Part shown: positions 241-15,599 of the stretch, one piece after another
Position numbering within the stretch: position 1 is the stretch's first letter
How the letters are laid out: each line of letters begins with the position of its first letter
Assembly (NCBI GenBank): GCA_900543715.1
Contig: UQSX01000062.1
Location: 1-16,927, forward strand
Length of the DNA stretch: 16,927 bases
Direction of reading: 5' to 3'
DNA from: an uncultured Blautia sp.
GTDB taxonomy: Bacteria; Bacillota; Clostridia; Lachnospirales; Lachnospiraceae
Position numbers and translations under genes: made by a program
Notes under the pieces: model-generated
The model's input: only the letters and a program-made list of their open reading frames with translations
Database searches by the model: none
Told to the model about the DNA's origin: nothing

Positions 241-1126
241 CTATTCTACATGCAGATTCTCCTTCACATAACCAATAAATTTTTCTGTCGCCAGACCGAA
301 TGGCTGCTTCCGCCTCCACGCAAGGACACTTGGGGCTGTCAAATCCGGAGACAGCGGGCAATATGTAATTTTTTCCGGGTCCCAGAAAGAAATAGAGCCT
401 TTCACAATGATGGAATATGCCAATCCGTGATGCACCATGATAGAGCTGTTAGATGGAAGATTCGAAGTAAAAAGTATATTCAGCTTCTCAAACTCATCTC
501 CGAACCAACGGGCCAGCTCACTTTGGACATTCAGGCGGTGTGGCAAAATCAACGGAAGTCCCCGTAAATCTTTCGGAGAAACAGCCTCTAGTTTTGCCAG
601 AGGTGAATCCGGAGGCATAACAACCACCCACTGCTCTTGATGATTAAGTTTTATATAATCATACTTTTCCTTATTGATTGGTTCCAGCAGCAGTCCGATA
701 TCAGTAATCCCCCGATCCATTCTTTCTTTTATATGATTGGCAGTTGCCGTATACAGCTCAAATGTAACAGCCGGATAGCGTTCATGGAAACCGCGGATCA
801 GATCCGGTATAACCTGCACAGCGGTAAGATCGCCGCAACCAAGGGATACGGTTCCTTCGACCATCTCCTCCTGCTCTACTAATTCACGCTCTGTTTTATC
901 CACGAGTTCCAGAATTTCTTCTGCGCGGCGTCGGAGTAACATTCCCTCATTCGTCAGAACAGTCTTCCTTGTACCTCGTTCAAACAGCTTGACCCCCATT
1001 TCATCTTCCATTTGCGCTATCTGACGGCTAAGAGTGGGCTGGGTGATATGCAGCAGTTCAGCCGGCCTTGGTAATATTTTCTTCTTGTACCACAGCTAAA
1101 AAGTATCTCAGTACACGGATCTCCAT
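241..1126 (-). pseudogene. LysR-family transcriptional regulator, frameshifted in the HTH
   Basis: LysR-type regulators bind DNA through an N-terminal winged helix-turn-helix and sense a small effector through a C-terminal periplasmic-binding-like domain. The natural start is the ATG at 1126, with GGAGG 7 bp upstream; it reads MEIRVLRYFLAVVQEENITK and then meets a TGA at 1060-1058. Removing one base in the run GCCGG (1062-1066) joins this to the long downstream frame, giving ..KA-AELLHITQPTLSRQIAQMEDEMG.., the classic LysR HTH. The repaired protein would be 294 aa, normal for the family. The effector domain (from about residue 90 to the end) is open and well formed. As read, the only sizeable product lacks most of the HTH. 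A single-base sequencing error is the alternative. No divergent target gene is present. Confidence 0.85.
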
Positions 1127-1160
1127 AGGTTTACCTCCAATTGAAAGTCAGCTTTACTAA

Positions 1161-1189
1161 AGCATATCATGTCCATGCTTATGAAGCAA
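1161..1189 (-). promoter_or_regulatory. Putative promoter of the LysR gene, with an inverted repeat
   Basis: Read on the minus strand, TTGCTT (1189-1184), a 17-bp spacer and TATGCT (1166-1161) form a moderate sigma-A promoter about 35 bp before the LysR start. An inverted repeat AAGCAT-N9-ATGCTT (1160-1180) overlaps the -10 and spacer, where an autoregulator could bind. The match is only 4 of 6 in each box, so this is tentative. Confidence 0.35.
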
Positions 1190-1277
1190 CCAATATACAT
1201 TTACGATCACTCATCCATATTGGAATATCTGTGGTTCAAAATCATTTCTTATCAGTTACTGTTTATAAAATTTAATC

Positions 1278-1763
1278 TCAAAGCACCGCCACCACGATCC
1301 CCACTGCAAGGCAGGCAGGAATTCCCAATAACATGCCAATGCAGGATTGTCTGATATGAAACAGATAATCCCTATACTCTTTCATATCTTCCGTGCCTGG
1401 AATTCTGACTTTCTTTGAGTGGCAGAACCATATACAATCAAGGACCAAGGCGTCATACCAGTCAATAATCAGCCATATCAGATAGGAATCTCTAAACCCT
1501 CTCTGAAACGTATGAGCACCATTAAAAAGTTTCAGAACAAAAGCAAATATAAACACAAAAATGATCATAGCTGCCACTTTCCGTATAATATCCCCTCTGG
1601 TAAACCGCTGTTTTCTTTTTTCGATCATACCTAATTCCATACACCTATCCCGGATAGCAGGGGGATAATCTCCCACCGAGGTCAGAGGATCTTTCAGCGT
1701 AAGGGCCACTATTATAATAGTAAACAGGATTATCCCTATCAGGCTTTCAATGAAAATGGCCAA
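1278..1763 (-). CDS. Small integral membrane protein of unknown function
   Basis: This 161-aa protein has four likely membrane segments: residues about 2-22, 64-82, 93-112 (containing LIWLIIDWYDALVLDCIWF) and 141-161, the last at the extreme C-terminus. A polar loop at 23-60 carries several Arg and Lys residues. The start is a TTG at 1763, chosen because AAGGAG lies 8 bp upstream, overlapping the end of the preceding gene; no in-frame ATG is nearby. Only 13 bp separate it from the methyltransferase stop, so the two are almost certainly one transcript and perhaps translationally linked. The acidic and aromatic residues in the third segment (DWYDALVLD) are unusual inside a membrane span and could mark a functional site. 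No family was recognised. A partner or substrate-handling role for the membrane-anchored methyltransferase is an inference from context. Confidence 0.75.
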   Translation of the reverse strand: MAIFIESLIGIILFTIIIVALTLKDPLTSVGDYPPAIRDRCMELGMIEKRKQRFTRGDIIRKVAAMIIFVFIFAFVLKLFNGAHTFQRGFRDSYLIWLIIDWYDALVLDCIWFCHSKKVRIPGTEDMKEYRDYLFHIRQSCIGMLLGIPACLAVGIVVAVL

Positions 1764-1776
1764 CTTTCTTCTCCTT

Positions 1777-2595
1777 TCATTTTCTGCCCACTAACATCTT
1801 TGACTCGCCAAGCATCATCATTGCCGCCCGGCGGTGAGAGCCAAATACCTCCTTTGCCGTGTCGATCAGGCGTACCTCCTCATACCCCATATCCCGGAGT
1901 TTTTGCGCAAAGGCCTCCATATCTCCATACATCCTTGGTTTCATTTCATCATTCAGTGCAAAGACGCCGCCCTTTTTCAGCACCCGCAGTGTCTCCAACA
2001 GAAGTTTCTGCTTATCAGCCCCGGTAATATTATGATAAACATAATTACTCACCACAGCGTCAAAAGATTCATCTAGGAAATCCAGTTTGTTGGCGTCCCC
2101 GTGTTGAAAGATGCAACGGCTCCCTGCTCCTTCACTGGCGGCGTTTTTCTCGCAAAGAGCCTGACTGTAGCTGTAAACTGCAGCCCAATAGTCGATCCCC
2201 ATAACCTTTGCCTCCTGCCATGTCAACGCAGCCCGGATGGATAATGCCCCCGAGCCGCAGCCTACGTCCAGCAGTGTTCCTTTGCCGTTATAATCCATAT
2301 GGGACAGGATGGTCTGATGTACCTGCTCCATGATCCTGCCCCCGTCAAAGGCATACTGCCGCTGGATCCATGTGATCCACCCAAGAAGTGCCAGAAGCCC
2401 CGCTACCACGATTATAAAAAGGAAGCCAAGTACAGGAATATGGAGCAGAGCAAATGACAGTACCGCCATCAAGGCTGCCAGTGTTGTCAGTCCGCACACC
2501 ATATAAAACACCGGATCCGACATCCAGTTTCCGTAATCCTCGCCGTGAGTGCCAAGCCGGACCACTTTTTGAGATTTTTCATTCCGTTCAGACAT
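1777..2595 (-). CDS. Membrane-anchored class I SAM-dependent methyltransferase
   Basis: This protein (272 aa) transfers a methyl group from S-adenosylmethionine to an unknown acceptor. Two hydrophobic segments (about 30-51 and 54-77) form a hairpin that would anchor it to the membrane. The cytoplasmic Rossmann methyltransferase domain follows: motif I LLDVGCGSG at 108-116, the acidic residue binding SAM ribose in VMGIDYW (D135), and the later NYVYHNI and VLKKGGVFALND motifs. The ATG start is preceded by AGAAGGGA. It is first in a two-gene unit with the downstream membrane protein. A consensus promoter with an embedded palindrome lies about 160 bp upstream, so it is probably under a repressor. 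The substrate cannot be read from the sequence; membrane location suggests a lipid or lipophilic molecule, which is only inference. Confidence 0.88.
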   Translation of the reverse strand: MSERNEKSQKVVRLGTHGEDYGNWMSDPVFYMVCGLTTLAALMAVLSFALLHIPVLGFLFIIVVAGLLALLGWITWIQRQYAFDGGRIMEQVHQTILSHMDYNGKGTLLDVGCGSGALSIRAALTWQEAKVMGIDYWAAVYSYSQALCEKNAASEGAGSRCIFQHGDANKLDFLDESFDAVVSNYVYHNITGADKQKLLLETLRVLKKGGVFALNDEMKPRMYGDMEAFAQKLRDMGYEEVRLIDTAKEVFGSHRRAAMMMLGESKMLVGRK

Positions 2596-2754
2596 AAATT
2601 CCCTTCTTTCTTTTATAACAATTTAATCCTTGTGATCAGCATTTCTCCAAAACCATGCGTATCCAGTTTACTGTAACTCCTCCCTCCGCAATATCTTTTT
2701 CATTGTATCTCCTAGCGAATATAGCAAAATATAAATGGATATTTCTATAATTTC
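2596..2754 (-). other. Long 5' leader of the methyltransferase unit
   Basis: The interval between the promoter at 2755-2783 and the start codon at 2595 would make an untranslated leader of about 150 nt. I looked for a riboswitch, leader peptide or attenuator and saw none that I can support; the sequence is AT-rich near the promoter and CT-rich nearer the gene. Confidence 0.4.
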
Positions 2755-2783
2755 ATTATAGTTAGTTTAAGCTAACATGTCAA
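2755..2783 (-). promoter_or_regulatory. Consensus sigma-A promoter with an operator palindrome in the spacer
   Basis: On the minus strand TTGACA (2783-2778), a 17-bp spacer (2777-2761) and TATAAT (2760-2755) match the sigma-A consensus perfectly in both boxes and spacing. The spacer is almost entirely filled by GTTAGCTTAAACTAAC (2776-2761), an inverted repeat GTTAG-N6-CTAAC. A protein bound there would exclude RNA polymerase, so repression is the natural reading. It drives the methyltransferase and membrane protein genes. The same GTTAG-N6-CTAAC spacing recurs at 6797-6812 before the ABC operon. Confidence 0.85.
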
Positions 2784-2888
2784 TAAATCTCTTTTACTTC
2801 ATCTCTTTTAAAGTGCACTGTTACAAAAGATTATCTTCCCTGATTTTGCGCTTTCTCCAAAACAGCAGCAAATAATCGAACACCTTCA

Positions 2889-2917
2889 TTGATAAATTCG
2901 TTCAATTTAAGTACAAT
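2889..2917 (+). promoter_or_regulatory. Promoter of the antitoxin remnant
   Basis: TTGATA (2889-2894), a 17-bp spacer and TACAAT (2912-2917) match the sigma-A consensus 5 of 6 in each box. It lies 45 bp before the start of the small plus-strand gene at 2962. Confidence 0.65.
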
Positions 2918-2961
2918 AATATTGAAACTATACATCTCACAATCATAAGGAGGTGCGATCT

Positions 2962-3093
2962 ATGTCAATTACTGCTACAGAATCAACGTTGGCCAATGCT
3001 GACCGCATGGAAATGGCAAAATCACTCCTTGGTGTCATTCCTTCCGATATTCCTGTTGAAGAAGCACGGAAAGAAAGGATCTCCAAAATATGA
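2962..3093 (+). CDS. Small antitoxin-like protein of a PIN-toxin module (orphan)
   Basis: A 43-aa protein reading MSITATESTLANADRMEMAK.. and ending ..EEARKERISKI. The ATG has AAGGAGG 8 bp upstream and its own promoter, so it is expressed as a real small gene. Its stop codon overlaps the start of the next frame as ATGA; that frame begins MKILINTCV, which resembles the N-terminus of PIN-domain (VapC-like) toxins, normally MKxLIDTxV. The layout of a short antitoxin followed by an overlapping PIN toxin is the usual one. I recall similar short proteins ending in LxEAReERLxKI beside PIN genes in clostridia, but could not search. The toxin is truncated, so this is probably an orphan antitoxin. The identification is inference from arrangement and resemblance. 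Confidence 0.6.
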   Translation: MSITATESTLANADRMEMAKSLLGVIPSDIPVEEARKERISKI

Positions 3094-3125
3094 AAATCTT
3101 AATCAATACCTGTGTCGAAGAATAG
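3090..3125 (+). pseudogene. Remnant of a PIN-domain (VapC-like) toxin gene
   Basis: A frame starting in the ATGA overlap with the antitoxin encodes only MKILINTCVEE before TAG. PIN-domain ribonucleases begin with a beta strand ending in an invariant, metal-binding Asp (..ILIDTxV..); here that position is Asn and the rest of the domain is gone. A terminator-like hairpin follows within 12 bases. I read it as the stub left after loss of the toxin body. With only 11 residues, the family call is tentative. Confidence 0.5.
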
Positions 3126-3136
3126 AAATATTTAAG

Positions 3137-3171
3137 AAGCCCAGGCTCAAAAAAATGTGGAACCTGGGCTT
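3137..3171. terminator. Hairpin between convergent transcripts
   Basis: Perfect 9-bp arms AAGCCCAGG (3137-3145) and CCTGGGCTT (3163-3171) enclose 17 nt that can pair further (CTC with GAA, one mismatch), and A/T-rich flanks extend the stem. It sits between the plus-strand antitoxin and the minus-strand ABC gene ending at 3209. There is no long U tract on either side, so it could act in both directions but only moderately well. Confidence 0.6.
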
Positions 3172-3208
3172 AAAATTTATCAAAATCCTTCTACGCCTCT
3201 GCCTCCGT

Positions 3209-4945
3209 CTAAACACCCCACCTCAGACTTTCCTGCTGGATATGATACAATCTCTGGTACAGGCCCTTCTTTTTCATCAGCTCCTTATGGGTTCCCCTTT
3301 CCACCAATTTCCCATCCTCTAATACAAGGATCTGGTCAGCGTCCGCCACTGTGCGCAGCCGGTGTGCGATCATAATCACCGTTTTTCCTTCAATCAGCTT
3401 TGCGATTGCTTTCTGAACGAAAACTTCATTTTCCGGATCCAGGGAGGCTGTGGCCTCATCAAGGAGAATGACAGGTGCGTTCTTCAGAAGTGCCCTTGCA
3501 ATGGAAATGCGCTGGCGCTCTCCCCCGGATAAGGTGCTTCCGTTTTCACCAAGAACAGTCTGGTAGCCATCTGGCATTTCACGGATAAATTCATCACAAT
3601 AAGCAGCCTTTGCCGCAGCGATCACCTGTTCATCTGAAGCATTTGGATTTCCAATCCGGATATTGTTTATAACTGTATCGTTAAACAGCGAAACATCCTG
3701 GAAAACGAAAGACATATAAGACATTAAGCTTTCAGGCTCTATTGTTTTGATATCTTTCCCTCCTACTGTAATCTTTCCTTTTTGGACATCCCAAAAACGG
3801 GCGATCAGCTTTATTACAGTGCTTTTTCCGCTGCCGGAAGGACCAACGAATGCGATAATGCTGCCCTGGGGTATTTTGCAGGAGATATCTTTGATCACAT
3901 CCTCCTGATTGTAGGCAAAGGTAACATGGGAGAGTTCAATATCACAATTATCTACAATCTTTTCCTCTCCTGCCATAGCCGGAGTTGTCAGAAGGGTACG
4001 CATACGGTTTGTAACAACATTCAGATTCAGCAAAGAAGACAGATTTGCAAGGATAGAAAGAATGGGACCGTAAATACGGGTTACCATCAACAAAAGCATC
4101 AGCAATGGAATCAATTCAATCTGACCTCTTGTAAGTAAAATTGCGCCCACGAAAATTGTAATTCCAATGCCTGCCTGCAATACCATGCTTGCACCGGACA
4201 TAAAGACACCAACAGCCATTTCAACTTTTACCGCTATTTTTTTCATAGCAAGAAGCGCATTATCCAAGGTCTTGAAGCGAGAGCCCCTTAAACCACAGAA
4301 TTTGATGATTTTCATACCTTCCAGATATTCCTGGACCTGATCAGAAGCCTTTAACTTTGCATCAACTTGTTTTTCAAATAACCGTATCTGACGCTTACGG
4401 CTTAACCAGATGATCAAAAATGCAATGGGTACAGTACAGAATACACATAGAGCTAATCTCCAGTCAAAGAAAGCAAGAAGAATACAGGTAATCGTCACTG
4501 TAATTCCGTTTGCAATCAATGGGGGAATCGTACTGCTGAGCAAGGATTCCATACTGCTGCAGTCGGCCATCATGTTTGTAGTAAGTTCCGATAAATCCTT
4601 TGTGTTGAAAAAACTCATAGGGAGCTTTCGCAAATGATCAGCGATACGAAGCCTTGTGGCGTTGGACTCCTGGTAAGAAGCGATATAGGTCTTCCGGTAA
4701 TCATTTTGGGCCGCCAGAAATACCAGTATTGCAGAAAGGATCCCTGCTCCCCATAACAGCCAGATATGATTCCACTGTACAGACCCTCCATTTGCTACAG
4801 GAGTTAATATTTCGCTAAAAATCATTACAGTAACACAAAAAGGAAGAAGCATAGCCAGATTCGTCAAAGTGCAGGCGAAAACGGCCTTTTTTAAATCCTT
4901 ATATCCTTTCTCTGATAAAAAGAGGACCTTCTGTAATTTTCTCAT
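3209..4945 (-). CDS. ABC transporter half-subunit (permease fused to ATPase), second of a heterodimer
   Basis: This 578-aa protein has an N-terminal six-helix exporter-type membrane domain (about 20-305) and a C-terminal nucleotide-binding domain. The ATPase motifs are complete: Walker A GPSGSGKST 368-376, Q-loop VFQD about 414-417, signature LSGGERQR 472-479, Walker B VILLDE 492-497, D-loop SLDPENE and switch His 528. It starts 3 bp after the stop of the partner subunit, with the AGGTGG ribosome site inside the partner's last codons, so translation is coupled. ABC pairs downstream of an AraC regulator recall siderophore-type YbtPQ/IrtAB systems, and the D-loop ending DPENE fits that impression, but drug or peptide export is equally possible. 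Because the partner gene carries an amber codon, this subunit may lack its partner unless it can homodimerise. Confidence 0.93.
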   Translation of the reverse strand: MRKLQKVLFLSEKGYKDLKKAVFACTLTNLAMLLPFCVTVMIFSEILTPVANGGSVQWNHIWLLWGAGILSAILVFLAAQNDYRKTYIASYQESNATRLRIADHLRKLPMSFFNTKDLSELTTNMMADCSSMESLLSSTIPPLIANGITVTITCILLAFFDWRLALCVFCTVPIAFLIIWLSRKRQIRLFEKQVDAKLKASDQVQEYLEGMKIIKFCGLRGSRFKTLDNALLAMKKIAVKVEMAVGVFMSGASMVLQAGIGITIFVGAILLTRGQIELIPLLMLLLMVTRIYGPILSILANLSSLLNLNVVTNRMRTLLTTPAMAGEEKIVDNCDIELSHVTFAYNQEDVIKDISCKIPQGSIIAFVGPSGSGKSTVIKLIARFWDVQKGKITVGGKDIKTIEPESLMSYMSFVFQDVSLFNDTVINNIRIGNPNASDEQVIAAAKAAYCDEFIREMPDGYQTVLGENGSTLSGGERQRISIARALLKNAPVILLDEATASLDPENEVFVQKAIAKLIEGKTVIMIAHRLRTVADADQILVLEDGKLVERGTHKELMKKKGLYQRLYHIQQESLRWGV

Positions 4946-4948
4946 TTA

Positions 4949-6763
4949 TCACACCACCTTTCCGCTGATCTTCCAATTGATGGCTTCTATATAATGCTTC
5001 CACATCCGGGCATAACAGCCGCCTGCTGCAACCAGCTCCTCATGTTTTCCCGTCTCTGCCAAACGCCCCTTTTCCATAACAAGGATCTTATCTGCATTGC
5101 GGATTGTAGAAAGTCTGTGTGCAATGATAATGACCGTCTTTCCCTCCATGAGTTTTTCAAAAGCCTTCTGTATCAGATACTCATTTTCCGGGTCGCTGAA
5201 TGCAGTTGCCTCGTCCAGGATAATAATGGGAGAATCTTTGATAATGGCCCTGGCAATAGCAATCCTCTAGCGCTCGCCGCCAGACAGATGTACGCCTTTC
5301 GTTCCCACAACTGTATGATAGCCCTCTGGCATTTTTGAGATAAAATCATGGCACTGGGCTGCCTTAGCCGCTGCGATCACCTGCTCTTTTGTAGCATTTT
5401 CATTTCCCATGCGGATATTGTCCAAAATACTCTGCTTAAACAGAAAGACATCCTGAAACACAAAGCTGACCTGGCCCATAAGTTCCTCCTGGGCCATATT
5501 TCGTATATCCACACCTCCAATGGTAATCTTCCCCTCCGATACATCCCAAAACCGGGAGATCAGATTGGCGATGGTGCTTTTTCCCCCTCCGGAGGGCCCC
5601 ACGATTCCGGTAATCTGCCCTTGCTTTGCGGTAAAAGTTACATCTTCCAGGGCTTTTTCTTCGCTGTTCCCTGTATAAGTAAAGCTTACATGATTAAAAG
5701 CCACATCCTCTCCCTTTGGTTTTTGTGGATGTGAAGTTTCCGGCATTTTCGGAATATTCAGGATTTCATCCATGCGGGCCACATTCCCATCAATCTGCAT
5801 AAAGGACTCTGAGATATACATGATTTTATTCAGGACCCCGGCAATGGCCGGAACAAACAGCAGGTAGAAAATAAATTTCATGGCAAATTCTGTGAAATCG
5901 GAAGTATTGGAGCCCATGAGAATACCTACAGGCACAAGGAGCAAATAGATATTGTTGATAATAGTTGTGAATGCAGGCATACAATTCTGCCATCCAAGAG
6001 AAAATTTTAATACCCATTCTGTATAGCCGCTGATGGCCTCCTGCAGCTTTTTAAAGGAGGAAGCCGTCTGATTAAACACCTTTACAACAGACATTCCTCT
6101 CACATATTCAACCGAAGCATTATTCATTTCCTCAGAAGCCTTTTGATATTTGGCCATATTCTCTTTCATATCTCCGCTGCCAAACCCTATAAATTCAACA
6201 GCAAAGGCCAGAAGGATTCCCACAAGTGAAGCCAAACCAAAACGCCAGTCTACGGCCAAAAGCAGGATCACCATAACAATCGGGGCAGTTACAGAGGCAA
6301 CAAAATCAGGAAACTGGTGGGCGATAAATCCTTCCACGCTTTCTATGTTTTCATCCATGATCTTACGCAGACGCCCGCTGCCGATGGTGAGATGATAACC
6401 TAAAGGAATTTTTGTGATATGATCGGCAAATAAGACTTTCAGATCATAAAGAGTACCGAAGGCTGCCATATGGGAGCTGAAAATAGCCAGAAAATAAAGC
6501 AGGATATTTGCAAGAATCCCGGCAAGGGCCATCCACCCATAGCTCATAACCCTTCCCATATCCAGTCGTCCTAAATCCGGGAATACCCCGATAATGGAAC
6601 GGATCATAAAATAAACCCCAATGTACGGGATAAATGAAGCTATAGCTGCAAGAGAAGAAAGTACAGCCGCCAGGATGATCACTCCTTTCCGGTCCGAAGC
6701 CAGCTCCATGCAGCGGGCCAGACCCGTCTTGGGCTTTGCCCCTTTTGAATTTTTCTTTGACAT
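4949..6763 (-). pseudogene. ABC transporter half-subunit with an amber codon in the ABC signature
   Basis: First gene of the transporter pair. The ATG at 6763 has AGGAGG 9 bp upstream. Residues 1-498 hold a six-helix membrane domain (about 25-320) and the first half of the ATPase: Walker A GPSGGGKST 389-397, Q-loop VFQD near 435-438, and the signature LSGGER 493-498. The next codon, normally CAG for Gln, is TAG (5269-5267). The same frame then continues without fault: RIAIARAI, Walker B PIIILDEAT, D-loop AFSDPENE, switch region IIIAHRL, to a TGA at 4949. The intact protein would be 604 aa. One C-to-T transition explains the defect. TAG ends other genes here (LysR and AraC), so a changed genetic code is unlikely. 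Without readthrough the product lacks Walker B and cannot hydrolyse ATP. A sequence error is possible. Confidence 0.9.
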
Positions 6764-6781
6764 AACACGGAACCTCCTAAC

Positions 6782-6827
6782 TAAAATAATGGCGCAGTTA
6801 GCATTTTCTAACCACGCTATTATTTTA
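6782..6827. promoter_or_regulatory. 46-bp imperfect palindrome before the ABC operon
   Basis: Arms of 20 nt flank a 6-nt centre (6802-6807). From outside in, TAAAATAAT (6782-6790) pairs with ATTATTTTA (6819-6827), GCG with CGC, and GTTAG (6797-6801) with CTAAC (6808-6812); only the G/T pair at 6791/6818 and the CA/CA steps are imperfect, and on the minus-strand RNA the CA steps become G-U pairs. It ends just before the AGGAGG of the first ABC gene. The core repeats the GTTAG-N6-CTAAC of the methyltransferase promoter. It may be a protein operator, or as RNA a hairpin next to the ribosome site; both readings are open. No good -35 box was found upstream, which fits an activator-dependent promoter. 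Confidence 0.7.
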
Positions 6828-6873
6828 CTGTTTCCAGTCAGTTCCTTCTACTCTGTTCCTTTATTTACAGGCC

Positions 6874-6899
6874 AAAAATAGCCCATTTCTTCTATTTTT
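6874..6899 (-). terminator. AT-rich hairpin at the AraC stop codon
   Basis: On the minus strand AAAAATAG (6899-6892, containing the AraC stop) pairs with CTATTTTT (6881-6874) across a 10-nt loop. The stem is eight mostly A-U pairs and ends in U residues, so it could be a weak terminator between the AraC gene and the ABC operon. Confidence 0.35.
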
Positions 6900-7804
6900 T
6901 CTTCCGATAATCCTTTGGGAGAACCCCATAGACCGATTGAAACGCTTTTGCAAATTTGCTGGCGTTACTGTATCCCAATTCCAGAGCAATATCTCCGATC
7001 TTTTTATTCTCATTCAAAAGGATATCCGCCGCAAGGTTCATTTTATATTTTTTCAGATAAGCATAAGGCGTATCACCATAAATATGAGAAAAAACCTTAT
7101 GAAATACCGTAAGGCTCAGATGTGCTTCTTTCGCCAGATGTTCCAATGAAATTTTCTCATCCAAATGCTGTACCAGGTAATCCCGTATTGCTTTTGTGGC
7201 CTGTATCTGCCCCTTTTCAAAATACTTGAAATCACAGCCATTCACCTGGGTGAGCTGATCCATATGATAAAGGAGCTCAATAGCTTTGATCCTGAAATAT
7301 CCCACATGCTCACGGCCCTCTGCCTCATATATTTCAGAAAACAGGTGCTGAAGTTTCTTCGGGGTCTGTCCGGTATACCACTTCTTTTCAATCCCCAGTG
7401 TTTCTCCGATCTTATCAAGATCAATAGGAATTTCCCCCATCATTTTCCTGGTAGACACAGACAAGGTCTGCCTGTCGATCACCAGGCTTACGGCAAAACA
7501 TTTTTTCAGCGGAAAGGAAAAAGACACCGGCAGGTATTGTGTGCCTGCAACGCCAAAATATCCCTCCGGTAAATAGGAGACTGTATGATTGGCAAACTCA
7601 CATTCATATCGTCCTTTCTGGCAATGGGTGATCTGGATAATATCCGGATTGAATTTCTGTGAGGGCATAGTCCACCACAATGTAATCTTCCCTTTGTTCC
7701 ATGATCTTTGCTTGTGTGCCATACCATTCCTGTCTGAAATAAGGACTCATCGTACGCTGGTACTGATCTAAATCAGCATAAGCTACTTTTGCTTTTTCAC
7801 TCAT
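6892..7804 (-). pseudogene. AraC-family regulator of the ABC operon, frameshifted
   Basis: AraC-type regulators join an N-terminal sensor to two C-terminal helix-turn-helices. The C-terminal pair is intact here (SLEHLAKEAHLSLTVFHKVF and KIGDIALELGYSNASKFAKA), ending ..PKDYRKKK. The true start is the ATG at 7804, which overlaps the preceding stop as ATGA; this frame gives MSEKAKVAYADLDQYQRT.. to ..DYALTE at residue 50. The rest of the protein continues as FNPDIIQITHCQKGRYE.. in another frame. Dropping one base from the run of three at 7654-7656 restores GAA-TTC and a 303-aa protein, normal for the family. Its position directly upstream of the ABC pair points to an activator of that operon, like YbtA for ybtPQ. 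As read, the protein is broken; an indel error in a short homopolymer must be excluded. Confidence 0.85.
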
Positions 7805-8148
7805 TTCTCTTTCACCGAATCTATCCATTTTTCAATTGCTTCCGCCAAAACAAACTGCTGCCTCAAAACAGCCATGCCGGTTGCCGGAATTTCCGGTAGA
7901 TTTTCCTTTTCCCGTATATTCTGTTCCAGATAACTTTTCAGCTCTTTTACATTCTCTTCTATACTATCTATACACTGCTTTCGCTTTTCTGATGAAAGAC
8001 TGTCCAGATTGACAATGACTGCATTAAAGTCCAGGAAAATATGGATAGGCTTAGCAGAGATCTCCATCATCAGCTTTTCAAATTCTTGCTTTCCCGTATC
8101 TGTCAGCGAATAAATTACCTTTTCCGGCATTTTTCCTTCTTTTGTTTT
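7801..8148 (-). pseudogene. C-terminal part of a PadR-like regulator, 5' end deleted
   Basis: The frame ending in TGA at 7801 holds ..EGKMPEKVIYSLTDTGKQEF.., the beta-wing of a PadR-type winged helix followed by TDTG and the leucine-rich helical dimerisation domain (..KPIHIFLDFNAVIVNLDSL..), ending ..AIEKWIDSVKEK. The first 50 or so residues carrying the recognition helix are missing: immediately upstream the frame runs into the end of the aldo/keto reductase gene, whose TAA is at 8150. An internal ATG at 8130 with AGAAGG before it could yield a 109-aa fragment without DNA-binding ability. It overlaps the AraC start by ATGA, so originally these two regulators were co-transcribed. The PadR assignment is from pattern memory and moderately secure; the truncation is clear. 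Confidence 0.65.
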
Positions 8149-8149
8149 C

Positions 8150-9280
8150 TTACTGAAGAAGCGCCGACATTTCCTGCATATAGGTGGGAATATCCAGTCC
8201 CTGAGGACAATGTGCCGTACAGCTTCCACATCCGATACAGGCTGCAGGCTGTTTCTCTTTCTCTAATGCTTTCAGCCGGTGCAGCCTCCAGACTGCCATA
8301 TTCTTGTCCCCTAAGGCTGCCCCTTCATCCCGATAGTCATTATAAGCGGAAAGCAGTGAGGGGATATCCAGTCCCTGGGGGCAGTTATCGCAGCAATACC
8401 GGCAGCCGGTACAGGGAACTGCGATTTTTTTCCGGAGTTTTTCACTGATCCGGGCTAACTGTGAAAGTTCTGCCCCGGTCAGGGATTGTCCTGAATCTGC
8501 TGTGATAATATTTTCCTTTACCTGCTCCATATCTGACATGCCGCTGAGGACCACGGCGATCCCTGGAAGATCCATGACAAATCTGAGGGCCCATGCAGCC
8601 GGTGAACCATTGCCTTTTGGCAGAAGCTCCATACAGTCTTCCGGCAGACTGGCCAGCATTCCCCCATGAACAGGTTCCATTACCATAACAGGCACATCAT
8701 GCTCTCTCAGGATTTCATACTGCTGTTTTGCGGTTCCCTGATACCAGTCATAATAGTTAAGCTGTATCTGTACAAAATCCCAGCTGTATGTTTCCAGCAG
8801 TCTGCGCAGACAGTCCGGCGTGCCGTGAAAAGAAAATCCGAAATGCCGGATCTTTCCCTGTTTCTTCTGCTCCTGAAAATAAGAAATGCAGCCGCAGCTT
8901 TCATAGTCGGCTGCTGTCAGATCTGTGATACCATGAAGGAGATAGAAATCAATATACTCCATTCCAAGGCGGTCAAGCTGATCCTGAAACTGAAACTGGT
9001 AATCCGGATTTGCCTGAACATTAAATTTATCTGCTACATAATAACTGTCACGGGGATATCCGGAAAGGGCCCGTCCCAAAATAGTTTCTGATTTTCCGCC
9101 GTGATAAATATAAGCCGTGTCATAGTAATTCACCCCATGGGCCATACAATAGTCAATGAGCTCCCGGGCCTTTGGTTCGTCAACGGGCTTTGCAAGTCCC
9201 GGTTCCGTCTGAGGCAGCCGCATGGCTCCCAGCCCCAGCTTGGAAAGCTTGATGTTCTCTTTAAATCCTGCATACTTCAT
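8150..9280 (-). CDS. Aldo/keto reductase with C-terminal 4Fe-4S ferredoxin domain
   Basis: This 376-aa enzyme has an N-terminal aldo/keto reductase barrel (about 1-280): LSKLGLGAMRLPQ near the start, NYYDTAYIYHGGKSE with the catalytic Asp and Tyr, a Lys in VADKFN, and HFGFSFHG. The C-terminal domain carries CTGCRYCCDNCPQGLDIP and CIGCGSCTAHCPQGLDIP, two four-cysteine motifs for 4Fe-4S clusters. Such proteins are common in anaerobic Firmicutes; physiological substrates are mostly unknown. I chose the ATG at 9280, with AAGGGGAA 8 bp upstream and MKYAGFKENIKLSKLG as the expected first beta strand; an in-frame upstream extension to 9343 overlaps the previous gene and is rejected. It lies 19 bp after the chimeric sensor gene. 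Its stop sits exactly where the PadR fragment begins, so a few C-terminal residues may have been lost. Confidence 0.92.
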   Translation of the reverse strand: MKYAGFKENIKLSKLGLGAMRLPQTEPGLAKPVDEPKARELIDYCMAHGVNYYDTAYIYHGGKSETILGRALSGYPRDSYYVADKFNVQANPDYQFQFQDQLDRLGMEYIDFYLLHGITDLTAADYESCGCISYFQEQKKQGKIRHFGFSFHGTPDCLRRLLETYSWDFVQIQLNYYDWYQGTAKQQYEILREHDVPVMVMEPVHGGMLASLPEDCMELLPKGNGSPAAWALRFVMDLPGIAVVLSGMSDMEQVKENIITADSGQSLTGAELSQLARISEKLRKKIAVPCTGCRYCCDNCPQGLDIPSLLSAYNDYRDEGAALGDKNMAVWRLHRLKALEKEKQPAACIGCGSCTAHCPQGLDIPTYMQEMSALLQ

Positions 9281-9299
9281 ACTTAGGTTCCCCTTTCTT

Positions 9300-9977
9300 T
9301 TATCGCCTGATCCCATCCCAGCACATTTGGAAGACCATTTCAAAGTCCACCTTGGGAAGCATAGATTTTTCTTTTCGCCACTCCTTGAAAATCTGCTGGA
9401 TAGGATAATAACAAAAGCTGATCAGAAGAACCGGCGAGGTCTGCTTCAGGATTCCTTCCTCTATTCCCCGCTGAAAAATCTTTACCGTATCTCTGTTATA
9501 CTGTTCCAGTTCCTCTATCATCTCATCGGTTGCCATGGGGGAATTGCAGGCCTGTTCTGGCACCTTGGGATTTAACGGGAGAATCTCAATCTGGGAAGAA
9601 GTAGTAATGGGCATAATATATTTCTGTTCAATCCTGCTTCCATGATCTCCCGCAAGTAATTTCGGTTCAAAAATATGGAGAAATTGTATATTTTTCTCCA
9701 TATGAGTCTGGATTTCCGTCATATGCAGTACATTTGAATTCACCATACCGGCCCAGCCAGCGGAAAAATCCATGGTTTCATTGGGCGTATGGTATTTTAA
9801 CTGGCCGCTTTCCATGTAGAACAGCTCTATGGCGTTATGCCAGTGCCAGGGTACAAAAGGCTCCCGGTAATCATCCAGTTCTGCCTGTGAAGCCACATAT
9901 GGAAAATCTGTAGTCTCATATGGCAGTTTTTCTTCCTTACTGCCTGTCTGAAATTCTAAATTGCGGGTAATTCTCAT
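9300..9977 (-). pseudogene. Chimeric ORF: AraC-type cupin sensor fused to a TetR ligand domain
   Basis: The 225-aa frame is uninterrupted, with an ATG preceded by GGAGG at 7 bp. Residues about 20-142 look like the AraC-family cupin sensor: FVPWHWHNAIELFYMESG with its His residues, then SAGWAGMVNSNVLHMTE and ILPLNPKVPEQA. In an AraC protein the linker and two HTHs should follow. Instead residues from about 146 (PMATDEMIEELEQYNRDTVKI.., GIEEGILK.., PIQQIFKEW) look like the C-terminal half of a TetR regulator, with no TetR HTH before it. The simplest reading is an in-frame deletion that removed the AraC 3' half and the TetR 5' half, near 9540-9552. It is still followed at 19 bp by the reductase that the TetR gene probably accompanied. 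The product has no DNA-binding domain. An assembly join is the alternative. Confidence 0.65.
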
Positions 9978-10071
9978 TTAGATACCTCCATGGGCTAATT
10001 GTAACATATCTGCCCCTGGAAGAGGAATGATAAGGCATTTTTTTCTCTCACTATCCGGAAGGGGTTTCCAA

Positions 10072-10100: not shown

Positions 10101-10160
10101 TTTTCTGGTAAAAAATAATAAAGAAGCGCAATACTTCCGCGCCAGAAAGGATCTGTTCCC

Positions 10161-11372
10161 ATGAATTGTCTAAAAAAAATATACTGCAGGACCTTTCAGA
10201 CAGGACTGAAAATAGCACTGCCGTTCCTGCCCTATCGAAAGCCTAAAATTGTCAACAGTGTGAAAGCCCTGCCGGAAGTCATTCAAAAGAAAAAATGCAG
10301 CAAGGTTCTGATCATCACCGATGCAGGTATACGAAAGCTGGGGCTGACTGCTCGTCTTGAAAAAGCTCTTGATAACGCTGGTATTTCCTACTGCATCTAT
10401 GACAAAACTGTAGCCAATCCCACCACCGACAATGTAGCTGAGGCCGTGGCCCTTTATCAGGATGAAGGCTGCGACTGCATCATCGGCTTCGGCGGCGGCT
10501 CCAGTATGGACTGTGCCAAAGCAACAGGGGCCCGCATTGTTAAGCCAAAGCAGTCTCTGGCAAAAATGAAGGGAATATTAAAAGTACATAAAAAACTGCC
10601 GCTTTTGATGGCGGTTCCCACTACTGCAGGTACGGGAAGCGAAACAACGCTGGCTGCGGTCATCACCGATGCCCAGACCCGGCATAAATATCCCATTAAT
10701 GATTTTTCTCTGATTCCCAGGTATGCGGTCCTGGATCCCAAGGTTACCTTAAGCCTTCCGCCTTTTATCACTGCCACCACAGGCATGGACGCGCTGACCC
10801 ATGCAGTAGAGGCTTATATCGGAAATTCCACTACCTATGGAACCCGCAAAGACGCCCTTCTGGCAGTACAGCTGATTTTTGAAAATATCTATACTGCTTA
10901 TGCAGACGGAAACAACGTGGAAGCCCGCCGCAATATGCTCCACGCTTCCTTTTACGCCGGCTGTGCATTTACTAAGTCCTATGTAGGATATGTCCATGCC
11001 ATCGCCCACTCGCTTGGCGGAGAATATAACGTTCCTCATGGCCTTGCCAATGCCGTGATCCTGCCTATGATCCTGGAAGCCTACGGAGAGAAGGTTCACA
11101 AAAAGCTGGCTCGCCTGGCTGTGGCTGCCGGCGTTGCTGATAAAGACACCCCTTGTGAGGAGGCGGCCCTGCAGTTTATCCAGGCCATTAAAGACATGAA
11201 AAAGCACTTTGGCATAGGCGACCATATTCCGGAAATCCAGGAAACCGATATTCCCAAGCTGGCCCACTATGCGGACAAAGAAGCGAATCCTCTCTATCCT
11301 GTTCCCGTACTGATGAACGGGGCAGAGCTGGAGCCCTTTTACTATATGCTGATGGAGGAGAAAACATCATGA
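10161..11372 (+). CDS. Iron-containing alcohol dehydrogenase (group III)
   Basis: This enzyme (403 aa) interconverts a primary alcohol and aldehyde with NAD(P)H in the cytoplasm. Family marks are clear: nucleotide-binding GFGGGSSMD at 109-117, PTTAGTGSE 153-161, and the metal ligands Asp210, His214 (GMDALTHAVEAY), His279 and His293 (HAIAHSLGGEYNVPHG), with the same 4- and 14-residue spacings as FucO. The ATG has AAAGGA about 9 bp upstream. The next gene, an aldehyde dehydrogenase, overlaps it by four bases (ATGA), so the two are co-translated and should form an alcohol-aldehyde-acid route. The N-terminal 25 residues include a hydrophobic KIALPFLPY stretch, probably not a true membrane span. 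Substrate not determined. Confidence 0.95.
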   Translation: MNCLKKIYCRTFQTGLKIALPFLPYRKPKIVNSVKALPEVIQKKKCSKVLIITDAGIRKLGLTARLEKALDNAGISYCIYDKTVANPTTDNVAEAVALYQDEGCDCIIGFGGGSSMDCAKATGARIVKPKQSLAKMKGILKVHKKLPLLMAVPTTAGTGSETTLAAVITDAQTRHKYPINDFSLIPRYAVLDPKVTLSLPPFITATTGMDALTHAVEAYIGNSTTYGTRKDALLAVQLIFENIYTAYADGNNVEARRNMLHASFYAGCAFTKSYVGYVHAIAHSLGGEYNVPHGLANAVILPMILEAYGEKVHKKLARLAVAAGVADKDTPCEEAALQFIQAIKDMKKHFGIGDHIPEIQETDIPKLAHYADKEANPLYPVPVLMNGAELEPFYYMLMEEKTS

Positions 11373-12748
11373 CTGAAAAGGAAATTAATGATATCGTTGT
11401 CAAACAGAGAAAATATTTTCAGACTGGAGCTACCCTTTCTGTTAATACACGGATTTCTGGTCTGCGCCGGCTCTACACAGCTATTTCTCAAAATGAAGAA
11501 AGAATTCACGATGCGTTGCGAAAAGATCTTGGAAAGAGCGGATTCGAGAGCTATATGTGTGAGACCGGTCTGGTCTTAGAAGAGATCAGCTATATGCTGA
11601 AACATATCCGCAGGTTTTCCATGGAAAAAAGAGTCCATACACCCCTCTCCCAGTTTCACTCCCGCAGTTATAAGAAGCCTTCACCTTACGGCGTAACGCT
11701 GATCATGAGCCCATGGAATTATCCTTTTATGCTGACCCTTTCCCCTTTGGTGGACGCACTGGCGGCAGGAAATACTGCAGTGGTAAAACCCAGCGCCTAT
11801 TCTCCTCACACCAGCAATGTGATCCAGCATATCCTGTCCAAATGCTTCGATCCTCAGTATGTAGCTGTGGTAACCGGCGGACGGGCAGAAAATACCTGCC
11901 TTCTCCGGGAACATTTTGACTATATTTTCTTCACCGGCAGTCAGTCTGTAGGAAAAGAGGTCATGCGAAACGCTGCGGAGCATCTGACTCCTGTTACCCT
12001 GGAGCTGGGAGGTAAAAGTCCCTGTATCGTAGATCAGACTGCAGATATCAAACTTGCCGCAAAGCGTATTGTTTTTGGAAAATATCTGAACTGCGGACAG
12101 ACCTGCGTGGCTCCTGACTATGTGTACTGTCACCATTCTGTAAAAGACAGGCTGATCAAAGAAGTACAGGACCAGATCCAAAAGCAGTATGGAAAAGAGC
12201 CCCTTCAGAATCCCGATTATGGAAAGATCATCAATGAAAAACATTTTGACCGTATTCTTGGGCTGATCGATGAAAAGAAAATTGTACAGGGCGGAAAGGC
12301 TGACCGGAAAGCACTCCGGATTGAACCTACGGTCCTTGACAATGTATCCTTTTCTGACAGGGTCATGCAAGAAGAAATCTTCGGTCCTCTTATGCCTGTC
12401 CTGACCTATGACAGCCTGGAGGAGGTTATCCGCACTGTTAATTCCATGCCCCATCCCCTGGCCCTTTACTTCTTTACCTCTGATAAATCAGCAGCAAAAG
12501 AAGTTACTTCCCGCTGCGGCTTCGGCGGAGGATGCATCAACGATACTATCATTCACCTGGCCACCACAGAAATGGGCTTCGGCGGATTTGGTGAAAGCGG
12601 TATGGGCGCTTATCATGGAAAGACTGGTTTTGACACCTTCACCCATTATAAAAGTATTGTAGATAAAAAGACTTGGCTGGACCTGCCTATGCGTTACCAG
12701 CCTTACCAGAAACTCCATGAAAAAATGGTGCGTTTTTTCCTGAAATAA
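11369..12748 (+). CDS. Aldehyde dehydrogenase (class 3-like), NAD(P)+-dependent
   Basis: The 459-aa protein oxidises an aldehyde to a carboxylate. Visible catalytic and cofactor residues are Asn116 in SPWNYPF, the FTGSQSVGKEV nucleotide loop at 188-198, general base Glu212 in LELGGKSP, and the nucleophile Cys246 in NCGQTCVAPDY. Its length (about 460) and the C-terminal QPYQKLHEKMVRFF match the short class 3 group, which acts on medium- and long-chain or aromatic aldehydes; some members are membrane-associated by the C-terminus, and RFFLK would fit. Start overlaps the alcohol dehydrogenase stop as ATGA; a strong terminator follows 3 bp after the stop. Together the pair probably clears or uses an aldehyde; substrate unknown. 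Confidence 0.94.
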   Translation: MTEKEINDIVVKQRKYFQTGATLSVNTRISGLRRLYTAISQNEERIHDALRKDLGKSGFESYMCETGLVLEEISYMLKHIRRFSMEKRVHTPLSQFHSRSYKKPSPYGVTLIMSPWNYPFMLTLSPLVDALAAGNTAVVKPSAYSPHTSNVIQHILSKCFDPQYVAVVTGGRAENTCLLREHFDYIFFTGSQSVGKEVMRNAAEHLTPVTLELGGKSPCIVDQTADIKLAAKRIVFGKYLNCGQTCVAPDYVYCHHSVKDRLIKEVQDQIQKQYGKEPLQNPDYGKIINEKHFDRILGLIDEKKIVQGGKADRKALRIEPTVLDNVSFSDRVMQEEIFGPLMPVLTYDSLEEVIRTVNSMPHPLALYFFTSDKSAAKEVTSRCGFGGGCINDTIIHLATTEMGFGGFGESGMGAYHGKTGFDTFTHYKSIVDKKTWLDLPMRYQPYQKLHEKMVRFFLK

Positions 12749-12751
12749 CAG

Positions 12752-12815
12752 AATATCCCCTGTGGAAACAGTGTTTTCAAAGTGATGTGCCTGTTTCCCC
12801 AGGGGATATTTTTCT
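12752..12815 (+). terminator. Strong terminator after the dehydrogenase operon
   Basis: AATATCCCCT (12752-12761) pairs with AGGGGATATT (12801-12810), and inside it GGAAACAG pairs with CTGTTTCC; a two-base internal mismatch and a 19-nt loop separate them. TTTCTT follows directly. The long stem lies between convergent genes and may also stop transcripts from the minus-strand gene ending at 12848. Confidence 0.85.
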
Positions 12816-12847
12816 TCGCCTTTTCGTAAATTTCAAAGGCTGTTTCC

Positions 12848-13696
12848 TTATTTTACCTCCACCAGTTCAATGCGGAAGTTCAATTCTTTTCCTGCCATTT
12901 CATGATTAGCATCGAAAGTGATGGTTGTTTCATCCTTTTCCGTTACTGTAACAGGGAAAGGCTGTCCATACTGATTCGACAGGTATACCCTCTGTCCTGC
13001 CTGAAGGTCTTCAGAACCTGGAAGCTGTGCGATCTCAAGAGTAAAGACAGCATTGGGGTCCGGCATACCATAAGCTTCTTCCGGCATCAGATGAACATCT
13101 ACTACCTGTCCTACTTCCATATCTGCAACAGCTGCATCAAATCCCCGGATCATCTGGCCTGCACCACAGATGAATTCCAGAGGTTCTCCCCTGTCATAAG
13201 AAGAATCAAACTGGGTTCCATCGTTGAAGGTTCCTCTGTAATGTGTACGGCAGGTTTTGCCTACATTGCGTCCGGTCAGTGCGGGACCGCTTCCGCAGGA
13301 ACCGCCGCAGTTTCCTCCGCAGGAATGTCCCTCTTCATGGTGGCCGCAGCTGTGGCCTTCCTCATGATGGTGGTCACAGTTTGCTCCGGTAGATACCAGT
13401 TCTCCTTTCAGATAAGCCTCTACTGCCTGATCTACATCGCCCTGAGCTCCTGCACACAGTTCTACTCCGGCCTCTTCAAGAGCTGCCTGAGCACCTCCGC
13501 CGATGCCTCCGCAGATCAGTACATCTACATCCTGCTCAGCTAAAAGCCCTGCAAGGGCTCCATGTCCTGTGCCGTTGGAACCGATCACTTCGCTGGAGAT
13601 TACCTTGTTATCCTCAACCTCATACACTTTAAAAAACTCAGTTTTTCCAAAATGCTGAAATATGTTTCCATTGTCATAGGTTACTGCTATCTTCAT
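12848..13696 (-). CDS. NifX-like domain fused by a His/Cys linker to a SlyD-type FKBP isomerase
   Basis: A 282-aa two-domain protein. Residues 1-105 resemble the dinitrogenase FeMo-cofactor family (NifX/NafY, PF02579): MKIAVTYDNGNIFQHFGKTEFF, ISSEVIGSNGTGHGALAGLL and DVLICGGIGGGAQAALEEAGVEL. Residues 107-135 are a metal-binding linker with a tandem nine-residue repeat HHEEGHSCG (110-118, 119-127) and a GGNCGGSCG tail. Residues 148-282 are a SlyD-like peptidyl-prolyl isomerase with its insert-in-flap chaperone subdomain: HYRGTFNDGTQFDSSYDRGEP, GAGQMIRGFDAAVADMEVG, EEAYG, then NHEMAGKELNFRIELVEV. SlyD normally carries its His/Cys tail at the C-terminus; here it sits between domains. A role in metal delivery or Fe-S/metal protein folding is inferred. 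No nif genes are nearby. ATG preceded by GAGGA; a good promoter is upstream. Confidence 0.9.
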   Translation of the reverse strand: MKIAVTYDNGNIFQHFGKTEFFKVYEVEDNKVISSEVIGSNGTGHGALAGLLAEQDVDVLICGGIGGGAQAALEEAGVELCAGAQGDVDQAVEAYLKGELVSTGANCDHHHEEGHSCGHHEEGHSCGGNCGGSCGSGPALTGRNVGKTCRTHYRGTFNDGTQFDSSYDRGEPLEFICGAGQMIRGFDAAVADMEVGQVVDVHLMPEEAYGMPDPNAVFTLEIAQLPGSEDLQAGQRVYLSNQYGQPFPVTVTEKDETTITFDANHEMAGKELNFRIELVEVK

Positions 13697-13781
13697 GTTT
13701 CGTCCTCATCTTTCCTCTTTATTCCAATATACAGCCGGGTGTTTTCGACTGTCTTTTTGCAGGCTTTCAGCCTCTTCTAAC

Positions 13782-13809
13782 ATTATCTCCATTCATGGAT
13801 TAATGTCAA
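13782..13809 (-). promoter_or_regulatory. Promoter of the NifX-SlyD fusion gene
   Basis: On the minus strand TTGACA (13809-13804), 16 bp, then GATAAT (13787-13782). The leader of about 80 nt contains a small hairpin, AGGCT/AGCCT with a 3-nt loop (13761-13773). Confidence 0.65.
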
Positions 13810-13841
13810 TACTCTATGAAAAATTCATCCGAATCTTCTGC

Positions 13842-14270
13842 TCAAAATACCGGGGTGATGCCTAATAATTCCAAAGTCCTCTGGTCTCTTCTCCCGCCGT
13901 AGTATTTCTCGATCACCTTGGTAAATACCCCGCCTTTTCCTTCCGCCTCTTCGAATAATGTCATAGAAGAAAGCAGCTTTAGATCGTCCGGACTTCCAAA
14001 CACCTTGTGCGGGTCGTCTGTATCCAGTTCCAACAAAGCCTGGCAGATACTTTTTATATTTCCTCCCAGATAAGGATCTTTCAGAAAATCTTTTGCTTCT
14101 TCCAGGCTCTGTATGCCATAATAGGCTGACATACTGCTGAAACCCAGACCCCGGATCTGGGGAAAGATATACCACATCCAGTGGCTTCTTTTACGTCCTC
14201 TGCGGATTTCTTCCAGGGCCAGATTAAAATCCTCTTTCTGTGCTTTTGTAAAGCGCTGTAAATCACTCAT
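13842..14270 (-). CDS. DUF1810 family protein
   Basis: A 142-aa soluble protein carrying the whole DUF1810 (PF08837) pattern: LQRFTKAQKEDFNLALEEI, GRKRSHWMWYIFPQIRGLG, MSAYYGI, SLEEAKDFLKDPYLG, and DPHKVFGSPDDLKLLSSMTLF. The molecular function of the family is not established. I start it at the ATG at 14270, with AAGGAG 9 bp upstream; the longer frame would need a TTG at 14291 and places the ribosome site inside the gene. It stands alone with its own promoter at 14310-14338. No terminator hairpin was seen downstream. Confidence 0.9.
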   Translation of the reverse strand: MSDLQRFTKAQKEDFNLALEEIRRGRKRSHWMWYIFPQIRGLGFSSMSAYYGIQSLEEAKDFLKDPYLGGNIKSICQALLELDTDDPHKVFGSPDDLKLLSSMTLFEEAEGKGGVFTKVIEKYYGGRRDQRTLELLGITPVF

Positions 14271-14309
14271 TTTCCTGTTCTCCTTTTCCAATACAACAGT
14301 CCTGCTCTA

Positions 14310-14338
14310 ATTTTATCTTACTGTCTCAAATTTGTCAT
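14310..14338 (-). promoter_or_regulatory. Promoter of the DUF1810 gene
   Basis: On the minus strand ATGACA (14338-14333), 17 bp, then TAAAAT (14315-14310), each 5 of 6 to consensus, about 40 bp before the ATG. Confidence 0.6.
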
Positions 14339-14357
14339 TATTTTTCCATTTACTGCC

Positions 14358-14386
14358 TTGCTATTTTCTCCGGTTCCCCCTAGAAT
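14358..14386 (+). promoter_or_regulatory. Promoter of the AI-2E family gene
   Basis: TTGCTA (14358-14363), 17-bp spacer, TAGAAT (14381-14386); about 50 bp before the start at 14437. It is back-to-back with the DUF1810 promoter. Confidence 0.55.
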
Positions 14387-14436
14387 GTAAGTAGCCTGAA
14401 TTTTTATAAGATTACGGCACCCACAAGGAGGTACTC

Positions 14437-15576
14437 ATGAAAAATAAGAAGTTTATATGGTTTACTGTTGGGCTTATCCTTTTGATCCTCTGTGTAAAAT
14501 ACAGCGATGGGATACTGGAATTTATAGGACTTTTATCCAGTCTGGTCACTCCCCTTCTGCTGGGCTGTGTGATCGCTTATATCCTGAACATTCTGGTCAC
14601 CCAGATAGAAAGGATTCCCTGTTTTCGCAAAAAGGGCACCATATTCTATAAAATACGCCGTCCTGTCAGCATTCTGGGCTCTTTGACAATTGTCCTTGCC
14701 ATTGCAGTCCTCGTTATCCTTATCGTTATCCCTCAGCTTGTACAGGCTATAGGGGTCATTGTCCAGGAAATCCCGGCTGTTGTTTCTGAAATCACAGCCT
14801 GGCTGTCTTCTTCTGACAGAGACTGGCCTCAGCTCCAGAAATTTCTGGAATCTCTGAATGTAAACTGGCCTCAGATTTTACAGAAAGCCGCCTCATACCT
14901 GACAAATGGACTGAGCAGTGTTTTTTCCTCTACAGTGTATATACTGGGCACCATTAGTTCCATGGTAATTACCGCAGTGGTAGCCCTGATCTTTTCCATT
15001 TACATACTTTCCGGAAAAGAAAAACTTTTTCACCAGTTTCAGACTCTTGCCAGAACTTATCTGAAAGAAAAGATTTACACAAAAGTAGGCCTTGTACTGG
15101 AAACAGCCCATGCAACCTTTACAAAATTTATTGTAGGCCAGTGTACGGAAGCTGTCATTCTGGGTTCTCTGTGTACCATTGGAATGCTGCTCTTCCGTTT
15201 TCCTTACGCCACCATGGTAGGAACTCTCATCGGGGCAACTGCCCTGCTGCCTGTAGTAGGGGCTTATCTGGGAGCCGCCGTAGGTGCATTTATGATCTTT
15301 ACCGTGAACCCGCTGCAGGCCATAGGCTTTCTGATCTTCATCGCCATTCTCCAGCAGCTTGAGGGTAATCTCATCTACCCCAGAGTGGTGGGCTCTTCTG
15401 TGGGGCTTCCCGGCATCTGGGTCCTGGCTGCTGTTACCGTAGGCGGAGGCCTGGGAGGCATCATAGGGATGCTCCTTGCTGTGCCTGTCACAGCCACTCT
15501 TTATAAACTTCTGCAAAAAGATGTGCAAAAAAGAAAGGCTGCTCTGCAGCCTGAGACGGAAGCGCCGGGGAAGTAA
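14437..15576 (+). CDS. AI-2E family transporter (PF01594) membrane protein
   Basis: This 379-aa protein has about eight membrane segments in the family arrangement: an N-terminal hairpin (about 7-22 and 28-55), a third segment at 75-95, a long outside loop rich in Trp and Ser (about 100-165), a segment near 167-190, and a dense C-terminal bundle (about 225-355) with GTLIGATALLPVVGAYLGAAVG and the closing IYPRVVGSSVGLPGIWVL motif. Family members have been linked to AI-2 export, Na+/H+ exchange or peptidoglycan-related transport; the name is not evidence for AI-2 transport here, and no lux genes are present. AAGGAGG precedes the ATG at 6 bp. The stop codon lies in the loop of the terminator. 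Confidence 0.92.
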   Translation: MKNKKFIWFTVGLILLILCVKYSDGILEFIGLLSSLVTPLLLGCVIAYILNILVTQIERIPCFRKKGTIFYKIRRPVSILGSLTIVLAIAVLVILIVIPQLVQAIGVIVQEIPAVVSEITAWLSSSDRDWPQLQKFLESLNVNWPQILQKAASYLTNGLSSVFSSTVYILGTISSMVITAVVALIFSIYILSGKEKLFHQFQTLARTYLKEKIYTKVGLVLETAHATFTKFIVGQCTEAVILGSLCTIGMLLFRFPYATMVGTLIGATALLPVVGAYLGAAVGAFMIFTVNPLQAIGFLIFIAILQQLEGNLIYPRVVGSSVGLPGIWVLAAVTVGGGLGGIIGMLLAVPVTATLYKLLQKDVQKRKAALQPETEAPGK

Positions 15577-15596
15577 ACTCCCCGGCCTTTATTATA
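15564..15596 (+). terminator. Terminator of the AI-2E family gene
   Basis: GCCGGGGA (15564-15571) pairs perfectly with TCCCCGGC (15579-15586) around a 7-nt loop that contains the TAA stop codon; CTTTATTATAT follows. The stem therefore begins within the last codons of the gene. Confidence 0.85.
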
Positions 15597-15599
15597 TAC

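Follow-up and report, generated by a model that had tools for sequence, protein, structure and literature searches.

Clusters of recent pseudogenes are known in horizontally acquired bacterial DNA, and yersiniabactin loci carry an AraC regulator, YbtA. ATP-binding-cassette (ABC) transporter genes and regulators are also found on mobile elements: C. difficile 023_CTn1 holds ABC, ABC, AraC, ABC and energy-coupling-factor (ECF)-type genes in a row (PMC6814731), and the equibactin locus of Streptococcus equi ICESe2 carries a DtxR-like repressor (PMC3672683). Here we analysed a stretch of 16,927 nucleotides (the window) from an uncultured Blautia sp. (GCA_900543715.1, contig UQSX01000062.1), in whose left 10 kb a tandem pair of ABC half transporters (ABC2a and ABC2b) lies among broken genes. 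Relative to intact homologues, 8 of the 12 genes or remnants recognisable by homology between 241 and 9977 carry inactivating lesions (LysR, antitoxin, PIN, ABC2a, AraC2, PadR, TetR and AraC1; the 161-aa protein, the methyltransferase, ABC2b and the aldo/keto reductase (AKR) do not), versus 0 of 6 between 10161 and 16652, a contrast with a one-sided hypergeometric p of 0.011, or 0.017 with the TetR-AraC1 fusion counted once; genes lost outright are left out of this count. We consider it very probable that the damage reflects erosion, recent and chiefly by deletion, of accessory DNA acquired by exchange, beside conserved chromosome. The first-pass annotation of the window had confined the damage to the left 10 kb, and this holds: all six right genes are intact, and an equal density of errors in the right half was not seen, with 2 gapped bases per 6016 against the nearest genome searched, that of Blautia sp. 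An81 (G001). The features are as follows.

241..1126, minus strand: LysR-type regulator with a LysR_substrate domain, broken
1278..1763, minus strand: 161-aa protein, intact in the window
1777..2595, minus strand: methyltransferase, intact
2962..3093, plus strand: antitoxin remnant, shorter than the An81 copy by 84 bp in frame
3090..3125, plus strand: PIN toxin remnant of 11 codons, with an in-frame loss of 399 bp against An81
3209..4945, minus strand: ABC2b, YbtQ-like half transporter, intact
4949..6763, minus strand: ABC2a, YbtP-like half transporter, stopped by a TAG at 5267-5269
6892..7828, minus strand: AraC2 regulator, thrown out of frame by an 89-bp deletion at 7668-7672
7801..8142, minus strand: remnant of a PadR-family regulator without its N-terminal part (171-aa copy with a PadR domain in L109)
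8150..9343, minus strand: AKR with a 4Fe-4S domain, intact
9300..9977, minus strand: N-terminal part of AraC1 joined in frame to the C-terminal part of TetR, junction at 9549-9558
10161..16652: undamaged flank with an iron-containing alcohol dehydrogenase (Fe-ADH), an aldehyde dehydrogenase (ALDH), a Nitro_FeMo-Co/FKBP protein, a DUF1810 protein, an AI-2E family transporter and a helix-turn-helix (HTH)-TPR regulator

By our own count the lesions amount to seven events, five of them deletions, alongside one frame break and one stop codon, and are less mixed than the blend of substitution, insertion and deletion first described. The LysR frame runs for 22 codons from 1126 to a stop at 1058-1060 (counted by hand), beyond which a different frame of the gene stays open (ATG at 1011); L115 (297 aa; 77% and 71%) and L014 (314 aa) each have an uninterrupted gene that both pieces match, and the locus is confirmed as damaged. 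Full-length copies of the antitoxin (74 aa) and of PIN (144 aa) are present in An81 and in G013, a genome matching an uncultured Firmicutes bin (L029); the G013 PIN copy carries PIN_3, and its antitoxin scores 29.5 bits against Phd/YefM, slightly below the curated 29.8. The PIN toxin had been called truncated and is indeed broken, but by the 399-bp in-frame internal deletion, with 0 shared bases at its junction, and the 84-bp in-frame deletion in the antitoxin had not been listed. The amber in the ABC subunit was correctly read: the TAG falls inside the nucleotide-binding domain of ABC2a, immediately past LSGGER and ahead of what we take to be the Walker B part, and the protein is full length in An81, G013 and P0126, a cluster of 97 members (604 aa, 4 residues different from the window). 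The AraC2 frame is broken as reported, but the 89-bp deletion accounts for the frame change and the proposed single-base insertion was ruled out; the junction has five shared bases, TAGTC (chance 0.005, as for the fusion below from a simple model of a single junction, uncorrected for the number examined).

The loss of the 5' part of PadR also stands, only the 3' part being left, with a PadR-AKR junction at 8141-8142 and 2 bases shared by alignment. G013 has a DUF4268 gene between PadR and AraC2 (L109:2237-3163), and the PadR and AraC2 frames overlap in the window and An81. The junction of the AraC1-TetR fusion has 10 shared bases, GGCCTGTTCT (chance 8e-6). The gene order in G013 (contig C11, L110) and in G007 (L111) is AraC1, Cof-type HAD hydrolase, TetR, AKR; the fusion is therefore a deletion of the HAD gene plus parts of its neighbours, which upholds the internal deletion first proposed and adds a lost gene to it. 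Between AraC1 and the flank, G013 and G007 also hold an ABC pair and a further TetR-looking gene that are absent from the window and An81, and these were probably lost there rather than gained elsewhere. A single deletion mechanism with long shared words was ruled out, the junction overlaps ranging from 0 to 10 bases.

An81 is a chicken-caecum isolate placed under Blautia producta in PMC6069880, which uses neither the word pseudogene nor the word siderophore; no paper on the locus itself was found in the literature searched. L076 and L108 are one and the same An81 contig. Keeping rows of at least 75% identity and at least 60 bases, we aligned the window to An81 contig C40 in blocks 1277-1341, 1463-1774, 2684-2990, 2993-3116, 3117-7672, 7668-8040 and 9549-15564; the last spans 6016 bases at 98.3% identity, the left part being made up of the other six. 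Left of 1277 no C40 row passed these thresholds, and window 995-1127 has a 73% match on another An81 contig. Two An81 contigs terminate no more than about 120 bases from window 15564-15586, which suggests an inserted repeat there in An81. Identity to G013 is 99.5% for the AKR/TetR block (AKR DNA 99.5%) and 97.9% for the ABC2 block, which lie on separate G013 contigs, versus 78-84%, block by block, for the flank. Since the island blocks are far closer to G013 than the flank is, the island was exchanged between species, as expected of the accessory region that the first-pass annotation had seen in it.

The left 10 kb would be a patchwork of blocks exchanged among gut Clostridia (a YbtP/YbtQ-like ABC pair under AraC control, a toxin-antitoxin pair, a methyltransferase and a TetR/AKR block) beside a conserved chromosomal stretch, and would be disappearing piece by piece. 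Most of this happens through deletions whose ends share a short word or nothing at all; a frame break and a stop codon account for one event each. The loss was probably neutral or nearly so. Relaxed selection on a regulated accessory region and decay over time had been proposed, together with a test of the damaged genes for elevated ratios of nonsynonymous to synonymous substitution (dN/dS). Between the window and An81 we obtained 0.10 for ABC2b (11 nonsynonymous, N, and 30 synonymous, S, differences), 0.32 for ABC2a (10 N, 9 S) and 0.125 for the 3' part of AraC2 (8 N, 16 S), and between the window and G013 0.17, 0.43 and 0.12 respectively, versus 0 to 0.27 for the six right genes, with small counts. 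ABC2a is highest, but it is also high between the intact An81 and G013 copies (6 N, 1 S), so its value in the window says little about the stop codon. The left genes are not clearly under relaxed selection, and the loss is probably recent, perhaps too recent to leave a mark on dN/dS; long-term decay is not supported by these ratios, whereas the accessory region, the reality of the damage and, roughly, its cause had been judged well.

ABC2a and ABC2b are both half transporters with ABC_membrane and ABC_tran domains (Pfam), in tandem. Among the best 60 of 244 (ABC2a) and 247 (ABC2b) matches to solved structures, YbtP scored best of the single half transporters with ABC2a (379 bits), as did YbtQ with ABC2b (313 bits); double-length eukaryotic exporters outscored them, most of these with two matched stretches. 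As in the YbtP/YbtQ importers (PDB 6p6i), the half transporters are in tandem and an AraC gene adjoins them; unlike those, the window's ABC2a and AraC2 are broken. No siderophore synthesis gene was present among the window frames scanned. The pair may have imported a metal-chelator complex and is presumably defunct in this strain. A hairpin-looking sequence (by eye) follows ABC2b at 3134-3174, with a copy in G007 beyond AraC2 (L111:12934-12974, 88% over 41 bases).

Searching named genomes with ABC2a yielded 94 relatives, of which 79 loci were kept, in genera that include Mediterraneibacter, Flavonifractor, Faecalibacterium and Intestinimonas; some cross-genus pairs of loci are 90-97% identical over 8-10 kb. 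L035 (Bittarella massiliensis) and L036 (Enterocloster alcoholdehydrogenati) are 99.99% identical over their whole 21494 bases, which either a transfer in the very recent past or an assembly that is contaminated or wrongly named would explain. In L042 the ABC pair lies near relaxase, MobC, serine recombinase, AraC, ECF-type transporter, iron-dependent-repressor and methyltransferase genes, and relatives of its relaxase, serine recombinase and ECF ATPase were found in 9, 12 and 40 of the 79 loci, the last an upper figure because ABC ATPases cross-match widely. Likened by gene content alone, its AraC, ECF genes and ABC pair resemble the gene row of 023_CTn1 (PMC6814731), its iron-dependent-repressor gene recalls the DtxR-like repressor of ICESe2 (PMC3672683), and both elements carry ABC transporters and regulators as cargo. 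The window differs from them in holding a damaged chromosomal remnant, and a Pfam scan of 16 of its frames showed no relaxase or recombinase. The idea that the whole island is an intact mobile element was unsupported, as G013 contig C32 continues into ATP-synthase-like and other chromosomal-looking genes (by eye).

The 161-aa protein adjoining the methyltransferase has no Pfam match; its gene lacks 126 bp in frame in An81 and G013, a deletion common to both, and is uninterrupted in G007 contig C105 over window 1300-1751. L044 holds a full-length relative (79.5%), and L042 a weak one (26%) adjacent to its methyltransferase. The methyltransferase is 94% identical in DNA to a copy in G002 and 71% identical in protein to L042:690-1514, and is not at the equivalent place in An81 and G013.

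Different genomes and protein records have cut the same genes differently. Across the records examined, AraC1 is broken at four distinct junctions: in An81, which has its own in-frame AraC1-PadR fusion; in the window and protein records P0001-P0003; in P0097, with a second AraC1-TetR junction; and in P0006-P0009 (junction tested in P0006 and P0008), where it continues into the end of an L131 gene, presumably a P-type ATPase. G007 has kept the AraC1 locus, but window 3601-6821, which covers most of the ABC2 pair, is gone from it, as is part of AraC2. Such repetition is what one would expect of adaptive inactivation, in which the habitat favours losing an iron-type importer and its regulators; the independent G007 loss, P0123 and P0124 (two further shortened forms, being AraC2 pieces with different tails) and the breakage of 5 of 5 left regulators would fit it as well. 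We nevertheless hold it unlikely: the AraC1 and AraC2 forms came from searches seeded with broken genes and carry no measure of frequency (for AraC2 a length rule allowed only short proteins to be returned), and 119 of the best 120 ABC2a relatives (5451 passed) are longer than the 498-aa stopped form. The preferential damage to regulators noted in the first-pass annotation is there in the count, but only suggestive, the excess over the 3 of 7 other left genes broken being not significant (56/792 = 0.07, by hand). AraC1 might alternatively be a deletion hot spot that repeatedly gains in-frame downstream partners (TetR twice, PadR and the P-type-ATPase-like gene), by a local mechanism or parallel selection in this group of gut Blautia; this too seems improbable. 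The database forms came from a search begun with the window fusion, which gives no measure of how unusual AraC1 is.

Sequencing or assembly error as the source of the lesions is very unlikely. The LysR frame break could be one, and the fusion junction is missing from the same-genus genomes searched (see below), but three of the seven events (fusion, AraC2 deletion and amber) are reproduced in other, non-identical records. The 225-aa fusion has full-coverage matches of 97-98% in three among the best 120 of 643 proteins, P0001 (3 member sequences, 24 contigs), P0002 (34 members, 2 contigs) and P0003 (2 members, 1 contig), with 4, 5 and 6 residue differences from the window respectively; of the 4 proteins found with the shortened AraC2, 2 match it from end to end, P0121 and P0122, neither identical to the window; and the stopped ABC2a recurs as P0125, with 5 residues different. 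Because these records differ elsewhere, local misassembly is unlikely, and a poor local assembly, allowed for in the first-pass annotation as an imitator of part of the damage, is unlikely to be its main cause. The junctions share at most 10 bases, below the usual assembly words, which are longer than 10 bases, and the right 6 kb agree closely with An81. That the fused or shortened proteins are functional, such as an AraC1-TetR product acting as a ligand-binding protein without a DNA-binding domain, is hardly credible even though five of six coding-joining deletions keep the frame (84, 399 and 126 bp, the window fusion and the An81 fusion; AraC2 does not) and the fusion frame is open in the window, P0001, P0002 and P0003, since the fusion has no helix-turn-helix match in the Pfam scan, the PIN remnant is 11 codons long, ABC2a presumably stops before Walker B, and a frame should still be open shortly after an in-frame deletion, P0001-P0003 having moreover come from a protein search.

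Several points weigh against recent deletional erosion of exchanged DNA. An undamaged island of the window's own species was not found, and the ancestral order was inferred from other species. The recurrence check covered three of the seven events, the fusion, the AraC2 deletion and the amber; P0121, P0122 and P0125 have no source label and possibly stem from the window's own project, which makes their independence uncertain; and the fusion junction was found in 0 of 20 same-genus genomes searched. Judging by its best 120 relatives, ABC2a loss is not general, and with no shared bases at the PIN junction one mechanism does not fit all deletions.

The erosion resembles recent pseudogene clusters in acquired DNA in being young, mostly deletional and confined to accessory DNA, and differs in that several sister genomes carry different deletions in the same genes. 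It looks like ordinary gene loss, a further example of a known phenomenon; of its features, the recurrent breakage of AraC1 is the one that might gain in interest. Alone, the erosion of this island alters no general view; it indicates that gut Clostridia widely share a YbtPQ-like module, and sister genomes at different stages of loss would make it possible to measure how fast and how repeatably gut commensals shed accessory genes.

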